Part shown: piece after piece, positions 8,056 through 53,568 of the stretch
Layout of the letters: the number at the start of each line of letters is the position of its first letter
Position numbering within the stretch: the first letter of the stretch is position 1
Origin: an uncultured Lachnospiraceae bacterium
GTDB lineage: Bacteria > Bacillota > Clostridia > Lachnospirales > Lachnospiraceae
Length of the DNA stretch: 53,568 nucleotides
NCBI GenBank assembly: GCA_944381485.1
Contig: CALWLI010000014.1
Coordinates: 1 to 53,568 of the forward strand
Direction of reading: 5' to 3'
Position numbers and translations under genes: made by a program
Notes under the pieces: model-generated
Told to the model about the DNA's origin: nothing
Databases searched by the model: none
The model's input: only the letters and a program-made list of their open reading frames with translations

Positions 8056-8949
8056 TTACTTACATTTAGCTTCAAAAACCTCAATGTCATCCGAATGGGA
8101 GGGTATTCTCTCCTCCTCGGGGGGAAGCTTCATATAATCCCCGTAGATCTCCTTAAGGACCTTTTCAGGCTCCGCAGGTCCCAGGAGCATATGACCTTCA
8201 AACAAGAGCTCCTTTACATTTTCGCTCCACTGCCTTTCAAGTCTGACCTGCATAAAGTCAGGCTGGTAGTTGCTGTAGTAGAGCCGCCTTGTAGGCCTTT
8301 TACCGTATCTTCTCGAGAGCTTCTCCTGAAGCTTAAAGAGCTTCTTTTGAGGAAAGAGCGGAGAGAAGGCTCCCAGTACCATGACCTTAAGCCTGTCCCC
8401 TGTACCGTACTTTGAGTAGTCAAGGGCATATCTCCTCCTCATGGAAAGCCCGTAAATGCACTTTTGGAGGAAGCCTGTTATGGAGTCTGCCAAGGGGCTG
8501 TCGCTTATATTGTCCAGTATAAATATGTCCACCCAGAGATGGTTGAGCTTTCCCTCATAGTATTCCGTCTCTCCTCCCTCGGCATGTCTCCTTGAGCTCT
8601 TTAGGACTATCCTCGGGGTAAAGTCATAGAAGGCCTCTCCCCCTCTGTAGGAGTCGCAGTCTGTAAACTCCATATCCGGGGGAAGCTCCTTTTCTATGAC
8701 AGCCTTAAGCCTGTCCAGATTATCCCTGGTCATGGCTATATCCACGTCGTCATCCCAGGGTATAAAGCCCTTGTGCCTTACAGCACCCAGAAGAGTTCCC
8801 CCGTCAAGAAGATAATTTATCCCGTATTTCCTGCATATCCTGTCCACCTCAAGGAGTATGCGCAGGGAGGCCTCCTGGGCCTTCTTCAATTTTTCCTTGT
8901 CATATCTGTTGTCTGACATTTTCTTATCCGACATTCTATTATCCGCCAT
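8056..8949 (-). CDS. LicD-family phosphotransferase
   Basis: Up to 297 residues. The nucleotidyltransferase-fold signature of LicD is present: YLLDGGTLLGAVRHKG (46-61) followed by PWDDDVDIAM (64-73), with the acidic residues that bind metal. LicD proteins transfer phosphocholine or related phospho-groups onto cell-wall glycans, which fits the neighbouring glycan genes and the choline-binding-type repeats of a protein at 50 kb. The start is uncertain: ATGs at 8949, 8934 and 8919 are 15 bases apart, arise from a tandem repeat (M-A/S-D-N/K-R/K three times) and none has a clear Shine-Dalgarno site. The conserved part begins near residue 16. Confidence 0.88.
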   Translation of the reverse strand: MADNRMSDKKMSDNRYDKEKLKKAQEASLRILLEVDRICRKYGINYLLDGGTLLGAVRHKGFIPWDDDVDIAMTRDNLDRLKAVIEKELPPDMEFTDCDSYRGGEAFYDFTPRIVLKSSRRHAEGGETEYYEGKLNHLWVDIFILDNISDSPLADSITGFLQKCIYGLSMRRRYALDYSKYGTGDRLKVMVLGAFSPLFPQKKLFKLQEKLSRRYGKRPTRRLYYSNYQPDFMQVRLERQWSENVKELLFEGHMLLGPAEPEKVLKEIYGDYMKLPPEEERIPSHSDDIEVFEAKCK

Positions 8950-9092
8950 TTTATTATCTGCCGCCTGAGCTTATTCGGCACTCTGTTGTCCGCCGCCTGA
9001 ACTCATCTGCCATTCTGTTATCTGCCGGCTGAGCTTATCCGACGTTCTGTTTTCTGACGCCTGGGCTTATCCGACGTTCTGTTTTCTGACGC
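8905..9092. repeat. 32-bp tandem repeats running into the start of licD
   Basis: On the - strand, four 32-bp units occupy 9061-9092, 9029-9060, 8997-9028 and 8965-8996 (each about GCGTCAGAAAACAGAACGTC then GGATAAGCTCAG, first two nearly identical). A fifth, partial unit and then 15-bp half-units (ATGTCGGATAAGAAA type) continue into the first codons of licD. Each 32-bp unit is itself two related halves. The repeats fill nearly the whole gap between rfbH and licD. Confidence 0.9.
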
Positions 9093-9130
9093 CGAATGCT
9101 TCCTCTGCTGTTTCCCAAATCCGTATCTCA

Positions 9131-11637: not shown

Positions 11638-12825
11638 TCAAGCCGAGAGGCGGCTCTCCTCTTTGATGATCTCCTCCCACACAGGAGACATGTCTCTCAG
11701 TCTCTCAACTATGGGTGGAAGCTTTTCTATTATGTAGTCCACCTCCTCCTCAGAGTTTACATAGTCAAGGCTCAGTCTCAGCGAGCCGTGGGCAACCTCC
11801 TTCGGAACTCCTATGGCAAGAAGCACATGGCTGGGCTCCAGAGATCCCGATGTGCAGGCTGAACCTGAGGAAGCGCATATACCCTCCAGGTCAAGGCTCA
11901 GAAGCAGGGACTCTCCCTCTATGCCGTCAAAACAGAAGTTTACATTTCCGGGAAGTCTTTTTTCTCTGTCTCCGTTAAGTCTCACCTTGGGGATCTTTTC
12001 TATGGCTGCTATGAGCTTGTCTCTCATGGCGGTCACTTTTTTGCTGTGCTCCTCCATGCCCTCTACAGCCTCCTTCAAGGCCTCGGCCATACCCAGTATT
12101 CCGGGAAGGTTCTCGGTTCCCGCTCTTCTTGAGCTTTCCTGAGCACCACCCTCAATAAGGTTCGGCAGCCTGATGCCTCGCTTTACATAGAGGAAGCCTA
12201 CTCCCTTAGGGCCATGGAACTTGTGGCCCGAGGCGGACATCATGTCAATGTTGTCGGCCTTTACGTCTATGGGAAGATGGCCTGTAGCCTGCACTGCATC
12301 CGTGTGGAACAGAACTCCCTTTTCCCTGCATATCTTTCCTATCTCTCTGATCGGCTGAATGCTTCCTATTTCATTGTTGGCAAACATTATGGTCACAAGG
12401 GCTGTGTCCTCTCTGATGGCGGCCTCTACCTCCTCCGGCTTAACAATTCCGTTTTCGTGGACGTCAAGGTAGGTGACCTCAAAGCCCTCCTTCTCAAGAG
12501 CTCTCATGGTGTGAAGCACAGCGTGATGCTCAAAGCGGGTGGTAATGAGATGGCGCTTTCCCTTTGCAGCTCCAAGCTTCGCGGCTCCCTTTATGGCCCA
12601 GTTGTCGGACTCGCTGCCTCCTGAGGTGAAGTATATCTCCGAGGGCTCGGCATTTACCAAAGCCGCCACCTCGGCTCTTGCCTCCTTCAGAACAGCCTCT
12701 GCCTCACGGCCCTTTGCGTGAAGGCTTGAGGGGTTTCCATACACCTCCTTAAGTCCTCTTGTCATTGCTTTTACAGCTCCCTCGCTCACAGAGGTCGTCG
12801 CCGCATTGTCAGCATATACAAACAT
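11638..12825 (-). CDS. nifS: Cysteine desulfurase NifS/IscS
   Basis: 395 residues, ATG 12825 with AAAGGAG 6 bases upstream. A class V PLP aminotransferase-fold enzyme that takes sulfur from cysteine for Fe-S clusters: opening [11 protein letters not shown] Lys202 in ASGHKFHG, and the persulfide-forming Cys324 in SSGSACTSG on the mobile loop, of the group I (NifS/IscS) form. It is first in an operon with iscU and is preceded by a strong promoter whose -35 lies inside a 13-bp palindrome. Confidence 0.96.
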
Positions 12826-12898: not shown

Positions 12899-12938
12899 AT
12901 ATTAGCACTTAATTCCTATTAAGTCAATAGGAATTAAG
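12899..12938 (-). promoter_or_regulatory. nifS-iscU promoter with overlapping Rrf2-type operator
   Basis: Promoter: TTGACT (complement of 12922-12927), 17-bp spacer, TAATAT (complement of 12899-12904). Operator: perfect inverted repeat CTTAATTCCTATT (12908-12920) / AATAGGAATTAAG (12926-12938) with a 5-base centre that includes part of the -35. A repressor bound here would block polymerase. The TTCC..GGAA core resembles sites of Rrf2 proteins, and an IscR-like Rrf2 gene lies 1 kb upstream; the pairing is inferred. Confidence 0.85.
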
Positions 12939-13032
12939 ATAAAAAGATGATATGAAGAAAAAGGCAAAATATGCCTGTCAGCATAGCCGGCGGGCTTAAA
13001 AATATCGCCATTGTGCATGCTGTCCGGTTTAA

Positions 13033-13693
13033 GCAAAGAAATTTACAAAACACAGAAAATCTTGGCCGTAACACTCGAAAGTGAGCAAAGATAATTGAAA
13101 AATATAAGAAAATCTTGGCCCAAGGTCCTGAAATAAGCCAAGAAAAATTCACAAATATAAAAATCTTGGCTCAAAGCCCGTAAAATAGGCCAAGAAAATA
13201 CATAAATAAAAGAATTCTTCGCTCAAACAGGCCTGATCAAGCCAAGAAAATAACAAAAATCAAAAAATCTTGGCTCCATTGCTCGAAAGCGAGCAAAGAT
13301 AATTGCAAAATATGAGAAAATCTTGGCCCAAGGTCCGTGAAATAAGCCAAGAAAAATTCACAAATATAAAAATCTTGGCTCAAAGCCCGTGAAATAGGCC
13401 AAGAAAATACATAAATAAAAGAATTCTTTGCTCAAACAGGCCTGATTAAGCCAAGAAAATAGCGAAAATCAAGAAATCTTGGCTCAAGGCCCATATAATA
13501 AGCCAAGAAATCAACGAAGATCAAAAATTCTTTGCTGTATGCCTTGAAAATAAGCAGTGAAAAATACAAATCATCAAAAATCCTGGCCTAAATTCTCGAA
13601 ATCGAACATAGATAAATAAAAAAAATAAGGAAATCTTGGCTATATGCCCGGAAAGATATCAAATAGAATTGCAAAACTCTAAAATTTCTTGGC
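13033..13693. repeat. Array 1: thirteen 34/35-nt palindrome-ended elements with 17-18-nt spacers
   Basis: Elements start at 13033, 13085, 13137, 13189, 13241, 13293, 13346, 13398, 13450, 13502, 13554, 13606 and 13659, steps of 52 or 53 bp. Most begin GCCAAGA or GCAAAGA and end TCTTGGC or TCTTTGC, with 20-21 A-rich bases between. Spacers are 17-18 bases, commonly of the type TCAAGGCCCGTGAAATAA. The last three elements have decayed left arms. Elements 2-5 are nearly identical to 6-9. The array fills most of the gene-free stretch between the nifS operator and the rrf2 terminator. The same unit occurs inverted at 53 kb. Confidence 0.92.
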
Positions 13694-13719: not shown

Positions 13720-13846
13720 CCTAAAAAACAAAAAAGGCATTACACATCCGCTCAAAGAAATGAATCCTGCGTTCCGGCCGGAGGCAGAGGAATGAACCCG
13801 GCGTCCCGGCCGAAGGCTGAGGGCTAGTGGCGAATGTGTAATGCCT
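13720..13846 (-). terminator. Compound terminator of the patatin-rrf2 operon with internal direct repeat
   Basis: On the - strand AGGCATTACACAT (13834-13846) pairs with ATGTGTAATGCCT (13735-13747), extendable to 17 bp with one mismatch, then TTTTTTGTTTTTT. The 86-base loop is not random: it holds two GC-rich direct copies of about 32 bp built around CCGGCCGGAACGC and GGCCGGGACGCCGG, each followed by a TTCATT(T/C)CT stretch. It begins 18 bases past the rrf2 stop. Confidence 0.75.
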
Positions 13847-13864
13847 CTATTTTCTATTTATTTT

Positions 13865-14278
13865 TTATACTTTTCCGTCTATGAGATCCTGCAGGCTTAT
13901 ACCCTCCAGGTAGCTGTCTATCATGTTGTCAAGTTTTATCCACATGGGAAGAGTGTAGCACATAGCTGCTCTCTTACATCCCACGCATCCGCTGTTTTCC
14001 ATGCAGGTCACAGGAGCAAGACTTCCCTCGGTGAGCTTAAGTATCTCCCCGATATTGAATTTCTCAGGCTCTTTGGAGAGCATATACCCCCCTGCCTTTC
14101 CTCTCTTACTCTTAAGATAGCCGGCACGGTTTAAAATCGCTGCTATAAGCTCAAGGTATTTCATGGATATCTCCTGCCTATCGGCCACGTCCTTCAGAGA
14201 AACATATCCCTCATCCTTGTGCTGAGCTATGTCTATCATTACCCTAAGGGCATAGCGCCCCTTTGTCGACACCATCAT
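13865..14278 (-). CDS. Rrf2-family Fe-S regulator, IscR-like
   Basis: 137 residues from ATG 14278 (a second ATG follows directly). The winged-helix Rrf2 domain begins VSTKGRYALRVMIDIAQH and contains the recognition region VADRQEISMKYLELI and the wing GKAGGYML. Four cysteines, C92, C98, C101 and C107 (C-x5-C-x2-C-x5-C), match the cluster-binding segment of IscR-type proteins, so it can sense Fe-S status. It probably controls nifS-iscU through the palindrome at 12908-12938. It follows the patatin gene by 14 bp and is likely co-transcribed with it. CymR-like cysteine regulators lack these cysteines, which argues for the IscR type. Confidence 0.9.
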   Translation of the reverse strand: MMVSTKGRYALRVMIDIAQHKDEGYVSLKDVADRQEISMKYLELIAAILNRAGYLKSKRGKAGGYMLSKEPEKFNIGEILKLTEGSLAPVTCMENSGCVGCKRAAMCYTLPMWIKLDNMIDSYLEGISLQDLIDGKV

Positions 14279-15162: not shown

Positions 15163-15247
15163 CTTCTCACCTCGTACTTTTTTGCCCAAGAGCTCCTCAT
15201 TAAGCTTTCCGAAGGGACTGTGATATTTGTCAGCCGGTTTTCCGGCT

Positions 15248-15358
15248 CAGCTGTAGAAAAAGCCTCTTGGCTGTCTTCACATCTCAGCTCCGGAAAAAGC
15301 CTCTTGGCTGTCTTTACATCTCAGCTATGAAAAAACTCTCTTATCTGTCTCTCCATCT
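15248..15358. repeat. Three 37-bp tandem repeats across the rfbG stop codon
   Basis: Units at 15248-15284, 15285-15321 and 15322-15358. Units one and two differ at few positions; the third is more diverged and forms the last 12 codons of rfbG. The TGA (15321-15323) sits at the junction and every unit ends in the same GCTGA on the - strand, so the stop has been copied with the repeat. Confidence 0.92.
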
Positions 15359-16457
15359 CAGCATTGGCCATGTCTTTCCCTTTGATCAGGGCTTTGGACC
15401 AGGCCACGGTCTCCGAGACGGCCTTGTTGACGGGCCAGACGGGCCTCCATGAAAAGACCTTTTTTATCTTTGAATTGTCAAGCTTTAAAAAGTTGGCCTC
15501 GTGGGGTCCCTCCGGATTCTTTCCGCACTCCTTTGCGGCCCCCTCTCCCCAGGCCTTTATAAACATGTCCGCAAGCTCCCCTGTGGTGACGCAGTCCGCC
15601 TCATCAGGGCCCACATTGTACCAGCCCTCATAAGCTCTGTCCTTCCCCGAAAGAGCACATATCTCAAGATATACGGCCAAAGGCTCCAGCACATGCTGAT
15701 AGGGCCTTATACTCAAAGGGTTCCTTATGAATATCTTTTCTCCCTTTGTGGCCGCCCTGACGCAGTCGGGGATTATCCTGTCGTTTGCCATATCCCCTCC
15801 GCCTATAACGTTTCCCGCTCTGGCTGTGGATACAGCCGGGCCGTCAGTTTCAAAGAAAGAAGACTTGTAGCCGTGAGTGACAAGCTCCGAGCAGGACTTG
15901 GAGTTTGAGTAGGGGTCAAAGCCGTCCAGCTTGTCCTCCTCCATGTAGGCGTAATCCGACCTCTCCTCATTCTTATACACCTTGTCCGTAGTCACGTTGA
16001 GAAGGGAGATCGGCTTGTGTCCCAGTCTCACGCACTCCAAAAGGTTTACTGTCCCCATCACATTTGTCTCATAGGTCTCCCTTGGTATCCTGTAGGAATC
16101 TCTTACTATGGGCTGAGCCGCAAGGTGAAAGACGTAGTGGGGCTTTACCTCTTCATAGAAAGCTTTGAGCTCATCAAAATTCCTGATGTCGCCTATGTGA
16201 GATCTCCTAAGTTTAAGCTCATCCCTTCCCATTCCCCTTCCGAAGAGCGGAAGATCCTCCCTGCTATCATCCCCTGCTCCGTCGCCGAAGACTATGTCAA
16301 AAAGCCCTCCCTCTACAGGGGGCTTTAAAGAATAACCGCTGACCTCGGCTCCCATGAGTATGAGTATGGCGCAAAGCCAGCTTCCCTTGAAGCCTGTGTG
16401 GCCTGTGATCAGGACTCTCTTGTCCTTGTAATATGCTTTAAGCTCATCAAAATTCAT
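15321..16457 (-). CDS. rfbG: CDP-glucose 4,6-dehydratase
   Basis: 378 residues. A short-chain dehydrogenase/reductase of the RfbG type: NAD-binding VLITGHTGFKGSWL at 15-28, VFHLAAQPIVRDSY, and the catalytic Tyr-x3-Lys in DPYSNSKSCSE. It converts CDP-glucose to CDP-4-keto-6-deoxyglucose, between RfbF and RfbH. It follows rfbF by 9 bp and is translated as part of that operon; its own ribosome binding site is weak. The last codons (EMERQIREFFHS) come from the 37-bp repeat, so the exact C-terminus may be a recent product of repeat expansion. Confidence 0.95.
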   Translation of the reverse strand: MNFDELKAYYKDKRVLITGHTGFKGSWLCAILILMGAEVSGYSLKPPVEGGLFDIVFGDGAGDDSREDLPLFGRGMGRDELKLRRSHIGDIRNFDELKAFYEEVKPHYVFHLAAQPIVRDSYRIPRETYETNVMGTVNLLECVRLGHKPISLLNVTTDKVYKNEERSDYAYMEEDKLDGFDPYSNSKSCSELVTHGYKSSFFETDGPAVSTARAGNVIGGGDMANDRIIPDCVRAATKGEKIFIRNPLSIRPYQHVLEPLAVYLEICALSGKDRAYEGWYNVGPDEADCVTTGELADMFIKAWGEGAAKECGKNPEGPHEANFLKLDNSKIKKVFSWRPVWPVNKAVSETVAWSKALIKGKDMANAEMERQIREFFHS

Positions 16458-51844: not shown

Positions 51845-52565
51845 TTATACCTTAGTCTTTTTCTCCACTGTTATGTCAAGCTCTATGTCTCCCTCCTGAA
51901 GCATTATAACCGTAAGTCCCGTATACTGAGCCTTTCCCTTAAGCACCTCGCAGTTATCTTCCGCAGGATATATCTGCCGGTATCCCTCAGGGATCTCTGC
52001 GGATATAGTCTCTCTGTTCTCCGCCTTCTCCTCCTGAGTCTCTATGATCTCTCCTGTCTCGCTGTCTATAAAATTAAAGCAGTAATCGTATTTTTTGCCT
52101 TTGCCCTCGGAATAGGAAAGTCTTCCGTCCCCCTGTCCGTACATCCGCTTTGACGCATCTGTTCCCTTTGTGAGGAGGAGCTTGAATTCCCATCTTAAAA
52201 TGTCTTTATATTCAGAGTTTATCTTTTGGTTTACGATCGCCTCTATCTCATCGTTAAGGTCATATATCTTAAGAGAGTCCTTGGTCACCGACCCGTCATA
52301 CTTGGCGGGGTACTTTACGATGACATTGTAGCTATTCTCCCTGTTATCTATACACTCCCTGAGATACTCGATGACCTCCTCAGCTGCCTCGGAAGAACCG
52401 GTATAAGCTATAACTTTGTCCGCACTTTCATATATGGCGTCTGACCTCTCCTCAAAGGAGCTGTCAAGACCTGTCTCCACCTCCCCTGTATCCATATAAT
52501 TTGCCACAGCCTTGGGTCCGTATTTTACGCCGTCAGCCTTTGTGGATGTGGGGCTCCATTCGTGG
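51845..52565 (-). pseudogene. 5'-truncated paralogue of the wall transglutaminase
   Basis: An open frame of about 240 codons that begins, just inside a 45-bp repeat, with HEWSPTSTKADGVKYGPKAV, matching HETWSPDSIKCNSRKYGSDSV of the intact protein downstream of its catalytic domain. It continues with acidic beta-rich sequence to a stop 48 bases before the intact gene. Signal peptide, wall repeats and catalytic domain are missing. The open frame extends upstream through the repeats (52566-52726) but only as a repetitive 15-residue artefact, and no start with a ribosome binding site exists. Confidence 0.75.
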
Positions 52566-52700
52566 TGAATTATCAGCGAAATCCGACATTGGATTTGCCC
52601 TCGATGGAGGTGAATTGTCAGCGAAATCCGACGTTGGATTTGCCTCCGATGGAGGTGAATTATCAGCGAAATCCGACATTGGATTTGCCCTCGATGGAGG
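52566..52700. repeat. Three 45-bp tandem repeats at the truncation point
   Basis: Units 52566-52610, 52611-52655 and 52656-52700; units 1 and 3 are identical, unit 2 differs at a few positions. Each contains the small inverted repeat AAATCC(N6)GGATTT, flanked by GC on both sides. Confidence 0.95.
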
Positions 52701-52854
52701 AGCTTTGCAGAATAAGATACTTGCAAAGTAAGATATTTTGTAAATAGCCTGCCTCGGGATCCGGAAAATCAGGCTTGCTTATCTGATTTTCGAGTTTGCT
52801 GAATTTCGGGCTTATTTATCTGATTTGGGATTTTATTTTGATTATATATCGTCT

Positions 52855-52928
52855 TAATTATTTATGCCAGCTTGAATATTTATGTCGGCTTGATTATTTA
52901 TGCCAGCTTGATTATTTATGTCGGCTTG
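52855..52928. repeat. Four 18-19-bp repeats alternating two versions
   Basis: ATTATTTATGCCAGCTTG and ATTATTTATGTCGGCTTG alternate (A-B-A-B), the last followed by CTCATTTATATGAG. Just upstream, GCTTATCTGATTTTCG and GCTTATTTATCTGATT form another loose pair. Between 52929 and 53134 only degenerate AT-rich words (ATAGATGA, GGCGTATGTA) are seen; no gene. Confidence 0.8.
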
Positions 52929-53134
52929 CTCATTTATATGAGTAGGCCGATTTTTTCTGCTTTAATTTCAATGGCCTGCCAGCGGATACATCGGCGTATG
53001 TAGGCGTATGTAGTTGCAGATGGGATTAGCCATAGATGACATCTATAGCCATAGGAGGCATATATAGTAATAGATGAGAGCGATAGGCGCAGATGAGGTA
53101 TGTATACATGGACAACGTCTGTTTCAAGGCCTTT

Positions 53135-53432
53135 GCAAAGAAAATTTGCCTTTTCACCTTTTTCTTTGCTTACTTCCGGGCGCTTGTGCAAAGAAATTTT
53201 ATCTTTTTCGCATTTTCTTTGCTCGCATATGAGGTGCTTAGCCAAGATTTTTTTCTTTTTCACATTTTATTTGCTAACATACGAGACATTCAGCCAAGAT
53301 TTTTGAGAATTTTGCATTTTTCTTTGCTCTCTTTCATGCCTTACAGCAAAGATTTTTCTGTTTTTTATTATTTCTTGGCTTAATTCCTCCTGTTTAAGCA
53401 AAGAAATTTTTAATTTCACTTATTTTCTTTGC
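53135..53432. repeat. Array 2: six palindrome-ended elements, inverted relative to array 1
   Basis: Elements start at 53135, 53188, 53241, 53293, 53346 and 53398 (steps 52-53), each 34-35 nt, beginning GCAAAGA or GCCAAGA and ending TCTTTGC or TCTTGGC, with 18-nt spacers. The interior is T-rich on +, whereas array 1 is A-rich on +, so the unit is in reverse orientation. Reverse-complement spacers resemble those of array 1 (ACAAGCGCCCGGAAGTAA). Confidence 0.92.
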
Positions 53433-53487
53433 TCATTTGGGAGTAAAGTCCAAAATTGTGTGTAAATTACCTTTAGGTACTTTTTAA

Positions 53488-53568
53488 TTAGGCTGCAAGC
53501 AATTTTTGTTGTTCAAGGGCGATTCGAGAGAGCTCGGGGATCCTTTCTTCCACCTCCTTGCCGACCTT
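53488..53568 (-). CDS. C-terminal end of an unidentified gene
   Basis: The last 26 codons (..EEVEERIPELSRIALEQ.., ending KLLAA) and TAA 53488-53490; the rest lies right of the window. The frame is open to the edge and has normal amino-acid composition. No family recognised. Array 2 begins 55 bases beyond its stop. Confidence 0.5.
   Translation of the reverse strand, partial: KVGKEVEERIPELSRIALEQQKLLAA

Follow-up and report, generated by a model that had tools for sequence, protein, structure and literature searches.

An array of short, alternately oriented sequence words that recur at a nearly invariant distance lies between an iscR-like and a nifS-like gene of an uncultured Lachnospiraceae bacterium, and it raises the question of what maintains this geometry and of what kind of element the array represents. 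The original prediction, derived from the letters of the window (the whole stretch of 53,568 nucleotides analyzed here), described thirteen units with a step of 52 or 53 bp at positions 13033..13693 and suggested that their spacing is under constraint. Both the observation and this main inference hold.

Architecture and surroundings of the array between iscR and nifS

The array, termed C14a here, is read on the + strand (13033..13693) as 13 units with a step of 52/53 bp and a last half-site at 13687-13693; its last three units (13554..13693, + strand, array reading) are degenerate. Half-sites of the sequences GCMAAGA and TCTTKGC, facing in opposite directions, alternate within it. Each unit consists of GCMAAGA, an A-rich linker of 20 or 21 nt whose A-rich strand is the + strand, TCTTKGC, and a spacer. 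The spacers had been put at 17-18 nt, and we found them to be 18 nt long with a single exception of 17 nt (start-to-start distance of 24 at 13113-13137). The arms of units 1-10 are near-perfect, with one mismatch in one arm, and the pattern TCTTGGC-N16-24-GCCAAGA matched five times in the window versus zero times in 100 dinucleotide shuffles. A four-unit segment of 209 bp is tandemly duplicated within the array (13031..13485, + strand; 2.2 copies, 91% matches). There is no open reading frame of at least 100 amino acids inside C14a, and Rfam models gave no match at gathering score across the window.

C14a is intergenic. Its downstream neighbor is a nifS-like gene for a cysteine desulfurase (11638..12825, - strand; Pfam Aminotran_5), and its upstream neighbor encodes an iscR-like Rrf2 regulator (13865..14278, - strand; Pfam). 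Two nearby features stand apart from the array: a nifS promoter-like site that overlaps a 13-bp inverted repeat, CTTAATTCCTATT...AATAGGAATTAAG (12899..12938, - strand), which lies outside the array family, and an inverted repeat with an inner 32-bp duplication that follows iscR (13723..13858). A kinship of the half-sites to IscR/Rrf2 operators was considered and rejected, CTTAATTCCTATT being by inspection unlike TCTTKGC/GCMAAGA. Other tandem repeats of the window, likewise outside the array family, are found at 8939-9093 (32 bp), 15246-15367 (37 bp), 52564-52700 (45 bp), and 52841-52937 (36 bp).

About 95-100 bp separate the array from the nifS promoter-like site, upstream of which it lies, and this placement would suit a local regulatory element of iscR-nifS, such as a curved upstream activator or an operator. 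The location beside the nifS operator, as originally described, stands, but the link to this operator looks incidental, since the host genome carries eight further arrays at other genes and since the closest relative by NifS (G005; 82% identity) possesses iscR, nifS, and a similar operator-like repeat, with about 240 bp (by reading) and no array between the two genes. We regard a local regulatory role as very unlikely.

A dispersed family of arrays in the host genome

The host genome (G000; 1.95 Mb in 41 contigs, 91% complete) contains 56 exact elements of the form GCMAAGA-N18-24-TCTTKGC, compared with none for the reversed-pattern control. Together with BLAST matches, these elements define nine arrays at unrelated intergenic sites: two in the window (contig C14), two on contig C4, and one each on contigs C2, C9, C11, C19, and C25. 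The second array of the window, C14b (53135..53432; A-rich strand -), has six linker elements and belongs to the same family as C14a; neither it nor the seven further arrays figured in the original prediction for 13033..13693. No solitary element occurs among the 50 of the 56 elements that were listed, all 50 of which reside in arrays. One of the C4 arrays is built from 14.6 copies of a 105-bp double unit. At the locus L072 (5228-6946), the 105-bp double unit keeps a minus-strand frame of 572 amino acids open across the whole array; this frame is probably spurious, yet it could be annotated as a repeat protein.

The geometry of the nine arrays is narrowly set. Of 80 start-to-start distances across the spacer, 78 equal 25 and two equal 24; of 85 across the linker, 44 equal 27, 40 equal 28, and one equals 26. 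When half-sites with at most one mismatch and intervals of 40-75 bp were counted, like-oriented half-sites followed each other at 52 or 53 bp in 137 of 146 intervals (69 versus 68), and this near-even split between the two values is what a demand for five turns at 10.5 bp would produce. The 18-nt spacer was also inspected for an extended palindrome, a candidate that was discarded (dyad symmetry of 0.247, versus 0.310 in a column-shuffled control).

Against this constancy of length, the sequences drift. Across 40 homologous unit pairs, taken from seven array pairs that were chosen by hand among 28 and aligned at offsets near, although not always at, the best diagonal, the linkers diverge by 27% and the spacers by 47%; the arms diverge by 7% (34 of 480 sites), a value that is biased low and partly circular because the arms help to define the units. 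The arm base written as M or K differs at 28 of 80 sites (35%), and 13 of the 40 pairs have linkers whose lengths differ by a single base. That length is kept despite sequence drift had been proposed for C14a, and the family as a whole behaves in this manner, with 78 of 80 spacers equal in length at 47% divergence and linkers that vary by one base. Among the units compared, the interiors change, but the arms and the lengths are kept.

Ordered runs of units are common to some arrays, above all to C14a and C4a and to C14b and C2, for which interior identity averages 0.675 on the best diagonal versus 0.448 overall, and less clearly to C4a and C9 (0.594), all of these comparisons being identities on the diagonal without a significance test. 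These shared runs support the view that stretches were copied between loci, the clearest cases being C14a/C4a and C14b/C2, and the internal repeats likewise support an expansion of the arrays through tandem duplication of two or four units.

An insertion-sequence-like sequence (53442..53568), 98% shared with the end of contig C25, adjoins C14b. Only two copies of it were found in G000 (window 53433-53568 and L076 8118-8260), both of which reach contig ends. That two arrays abut such a sequence could suggest that they are degenerate remnants of a known phage or other mobile element, an outcome that the original prediction had named as one that would speak against it. We did not find this to be the case: the insertion-like sequence interrupts the C14b and C25 arrays nine bases into the 18-nt spacer, which is the center of the mirror unit, and does not carry them, and C14a used as a query had no match among 50,697 phage and 72,556 plasmid records. 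The chance that the arrays are such remnants appears to be minimal.

The family is narrowly distributed. In 115 further genomes, of which 24 belong to the genus and the others to the family or order, the GCMAAGA/TCTTKGC pattern occurs 0-5 times per genome, which corresponds to background, the reversed control reaching up to 12. A scanner for alternating arrays found none in 330 kb sampled from G005 or in 20 stretches (about 384 kb) from other genera of the family, negatives that are weak because this scanner recovers seven of the nine known G000 arrays and misses those of C14b and C25. Its shuffled control gave no match in 1.18 Mb and in 2.30 Mb (overlapping sets). Array families, including those with other words described below, are known in only three of the 25 genus members, and this distribution, together with the array-free sample of G005, makes the arrays look dispensable.

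Several matches of these searches were set aside. The three-half-site pattern hit 29 stretches among the GTDB 220 species genomes, a set that may omit the genome of the window or a very near one, each with a single match and scattered over many unrelated groups, and these were taken as chance. Searches of viral contigs returned seven, four, and three single matches; the scanner finds no array in any of the 14, and the four that were read as sequence look like variants of one ordinary stretch. The scanner also matched the 45-bp repeat of the window (at 52579-52686), a CRISPR array at a contig start in G015 (L230 1-360; repeat GTCGCTCCCCACGCGGGAGCGTGGATTGAAAT), and L087, L172, and L224, which have a different geometry. 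A further scanner match, in an unrelated genome of the Desulfobacteraceae (L096 4560-4900) that the half-site pattern had brought up, stems from repeats of about 101-105 bp that are rich in GCAAAG words.

Half-site words and helical register in related species

Two further species of the genus, found through runs of tandem repeats and the scanner for strictly alternating words, carry dispersed arrays with different half-sites. G014 has 20 exact elements of GCAGTCA/TGACTGC (control 0; 0-1 per genome in the other 24 genus genomes), with a linker distance of 29 in 49 of 50 and a spacer distance of 23 or 24 in 39 of 42 cases, counts in which a few L283 intervals enter more than one run. It also contains one array with the word TACGTAA and one with CAATCC, each with four steps and a mean step of 52.5. 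G002 has 27 exact elements of AGGTACAA/TTGTACCT (control 0; searched in G002 only). Seven of the 11 loci listed for this species (L273-L281) are situated no more than about 250 bp from the end of a contig, and its arrays may therefore exceed their assembled length and may break assemblies.

The original prediction had proposed to count step lengths in other copies of the design. Under the same counting rules as in G000, where 52 or 53 bp prevail, the step is 52/53 bp in 58 of 63 intervals of the G014 GCAGTCA family and 62/63 bp, or about six turns, in 49 of 56 intervals of G002. The steps cluster in all three species, and the prediction withstood the check that it had set for itself. The division of the step between spacer and linker varies by family (about 25+27.5, 23.5+29, 21+31, and 31.5+31), and the sum amounts to five or six turns. 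Among the three array-bearing species, half-site words change and the helical register does not. The step corresponds to five turns of the helix, or to about six in G002, which places like-oriented half-sites on one face of the DNA and lets any bend within a unit accumulate along the array. Array families of different words may share ancestry in step length, and hence would not be fully independent.

The A-tracts had been suggested to recur in phase and to favor curvature, a proposal that held for the most part for predicted curvature and only in part for phasing. We used two wedge models and a set of 27 arrays, which left out L266, L275, the G014 CAATCC array, and array fragments in L277 and L281. 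With a dinucleotide wedge model, curvature per 105 bp was above the shuffled mean in all 27 arrays, with z of at least 2 in 21, although any repeat in helical register will by itself produce part of such an excess over shuffles. An AA-wedge model likewise gave z of at least 2 in 21 of the 27, not the same arrays (9/9 in G000, 4/10 in G014, and 8/8 in G002). A statistic for A-tract phasing reached z of at least 2 in only 10 of the 27.

Inverted arms may also signify an array of RNA or single-stranded DNA hairpins, acting as an attenuator, as mRNA-stabilizing 3' structures, or as the substrate of a hairpin-recognizing enzyme. Strong folding is predicted for both strands of 13033-13300 (z -4.95 and -5.17), and the arrays tend toward gene 3' ends, as would be expected of hairpins; strong folding is, however, expected of inverted repeats as such, and selection for pairing is not thereby indicated. 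The variable arm base of G000 does not covary with its mirror partner, being matched in 20 of the 48 pairs across the spacer (Fisher p 0.54) and in 32 of the 54 across the linker (p 0.39), which leaves 28 and 22 pairs mismatched; covariation was still absent after removal of similar pairs (13/21 and 7/15 matched, p 0.40 and 1.0). In G002 and G014, arm changes are almost never compensated, the same change being present in both arms in 0 of 64 and 2 of 84 cases, respectively. This lack of covariation between mirror partners argues against selected hairpins. Furthermore, stems and loops require no helical step, and the A-rich strand coincides with the coding strand in two of the four co-directional G000 loci and hence has no preferred direction relative to transcription. 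Hairpin arrays are improbable on these grounds, and we read the elements as double-stranded half-sites on the basis of their sequence pattern.

Genomic position and candidate modes of action

Among the 19 arrays with genes on both sides, nine lie between convergent and ten between co-directional genes, and none between divergent ones. Flanking genes were called as mechanical open reading frames for this count, short frames that overlap the arrays being ignored, and the right-hand frames of L267 and L270 are short and fall outside the Pfam check. The array neighbors include genes for EF-Tu, fructose-bisphosphate aldolase, pyruvate phosphate dikinase (PPDK), triosephosphate isomerase (TIM), a type III glutamine synthetase, and ATP synthase subunit D. 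At L265, L267, L270, L283, L284, and L278 (G014 and G002), arrays are often located near the 3' ends of genes for glutamine synthetase, aldolase, PPDK, TIM, transaldolase, and EF-Tu. EF-Tu, aldolase, PPDK, TIM, glutamine synthetase, transaldolase, and ATP synthase subunit D are usually encoded by highly expressed genes. None of the flanking protein families appears next to arrays at several loci in a pattern that would point to a partner.

The chief rival to a function in the host is a selfish bacterial satellite that spreads and grows by recombination or through a copying enzyme; the helical step would then mirror the geometry of this enzyme, with its sites on one face, and the species-specific words would result from turnover of the master copy. 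Such a satellite would fit the presence of the G000 family in one species and its background level in the 24 sampled congeners, the iscR-nifS region of G005 that lacks an array, the ordered unit runs shared by some arrays, the tandem duplications of 105 and 209 bp, and the lack of solitary elements among the 50 of 56 that were listed. It would, however, need continued activity or selection to account for a step and arms that are fixed while the spacers are near 50% divergent. In addition, a search for PF01797 (Y1/RAYT-type) proteins gave no match in G000, a result that is not final for a genome that is 91% complete, although G014 has three matches, two of them full-length. G002 has two short ones, and 15 of the 25 genus genomes match in a manner that does not track the arrays. 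Nor does a satellite gain from the phage and plasmid records, in which C14a is unmatched, or from the viral contigs, whose matches contain no arrays. We consider it unlikely that the arrays are purely selfish satellites.

With respect to known systems, the literature that we searched under open licence contains no matching named element. Neisserial intergenic mosaic elements (dRS3) consist of short inverted repeats that flank variable segments and are repeated in intergenic regions; dRS3 is a 20-bp repeat, and the segment lengths vary. The arrays have short inverted repeats around variable segments in common with these elements, but neither the 20-bp repeat nor the varying segment lengths. Centromere arrays of the parS/parC type present protein sites arrayed on curved DNA. 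Unlike these, the arrays described here are many and dispersed over the chromosome, and the flanking proteins that were scanned do not include a partition protein.

The closest likeness is to the BIME-2/REP arrays of E. coli, Xanthomonas, and Stenotrophomonas. These have been described as regularly spaced units of alternating, inverted orientation that lie outside genes, seldom between divergent ones, and whose sequence families are partly species-specific, with BIME-2 being bound by gyrase (PMC3733652, PMC2817692, PMC6379681). Alternating units at regular spacing, an extragenic position, the avoidance of divergent gene pairs (0 of 19), and words that differ by species are traits that the present arrays share, and the insertion-like interruption and the two full-length PF01797 matches of G014 would also be in keeping with a genuine REP/BIME family mobilized by a RAYT or, as regards the regular alternation, with a CRISPR-like array. 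On the other hand, the half-sites are 7-8 bp long and not tagged palindromes of 20-40 bp, the column consensus of 40 distinct G000 units consists only of the 7-bp mirror arms and has no GTAG or CGTC tag, there is no compensatory pairing, and no RAYT was found in G000. The segments between REPs of Stenotrophomonas are reported to vary substantially in length (PMC2817692), unlike the step measured here, which equals whole helical turns within about 1 bp; the lack of a solitary copy among the 50 elements listed is a further difference. A CRISPR would in turn have a long identical direct repeat, whereas only 7-bp arms are constant here, and the general scan of the array flanks yielded no cas match among the Pfam matches. 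Membership in the REP/BIME or CRISPR systems is highly doubtful.

We favor, at about even confidence, the explanation that C14a is one of nine dispersed, intergenic, double-stranded protein-binding arrays that are curved and work in a manner similar to BIME-2 and gyrase without belonging to the REP/BIME family. The arrays would probably serve as docking rails for a putative DNA-binding protein. A sequence-specific protein with rapidly evolving specificity would coat or coil the curved array DNA at gene 3' ends; alternatively, a wrapping enzyme such as DNA gyrase might act there, aided by such a sequence-specific protein. The bound array may set the local topology or insulate neighboring transcription, as has been proposed for the BIME-2 arrays of E. 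coli. In the text available from a study of E. coli gyrase, the enzyme's motif is described as comprising helix-phased AT tracts and periodic regions consistent with the 35-52 bp wrapped on the GyrA CTDs, and BIME-2 arrays are reported to be enriched for gyrase cleavage (PMC6379681). The arrays resemble strong gyrase sites (the Mu SGS and the gyrase motif) in their helix-phased AT tracts and their predicted curved DNA, and differ from them in their long tandem organization and in their fixed inverted words, which change from species to species. Several points count against the favored explanation: gyrase acting by itself would have no need of 7-bp words specific to each species, and the same text describes the recruitment of gyrase downstream of genes as not coded in the sequence (PMC6379681). 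The limited A-tract phasing, the spacers without dyad symmetry, and the apparent dispensability of the arrays weigh in the same direction.

We assign the arrays to the dispersed-repeat kind. A bolder and less likely reading is that they constitute a new class of phased nucleoprotein arrays with fast turnover; we can only tentatively suggest that the genus carries a class of chromosomal, satellite-like arrays that keep their geometry (inverted half-sites at every five or six turns of curved DNA) and replace the word between species, with a topological or chromosome-organizing role. A DNA-binding protein that co-evolves rapidly would lead one to expect such replacement of the word. If such a class exists, it would be a bacterial parallel to the turnover of eukaryotic satellites and centromeres, and if the step is selected, the arrays would be natural rulers of helical phase in cells, present in at least three species with different words. 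They would give direct access to the use that bacteria make of curved, phased DNA at the ends of genes, and could serve as bait for a putative architectural DNA-binding protein with a specificity that differs from one close relative to the next.
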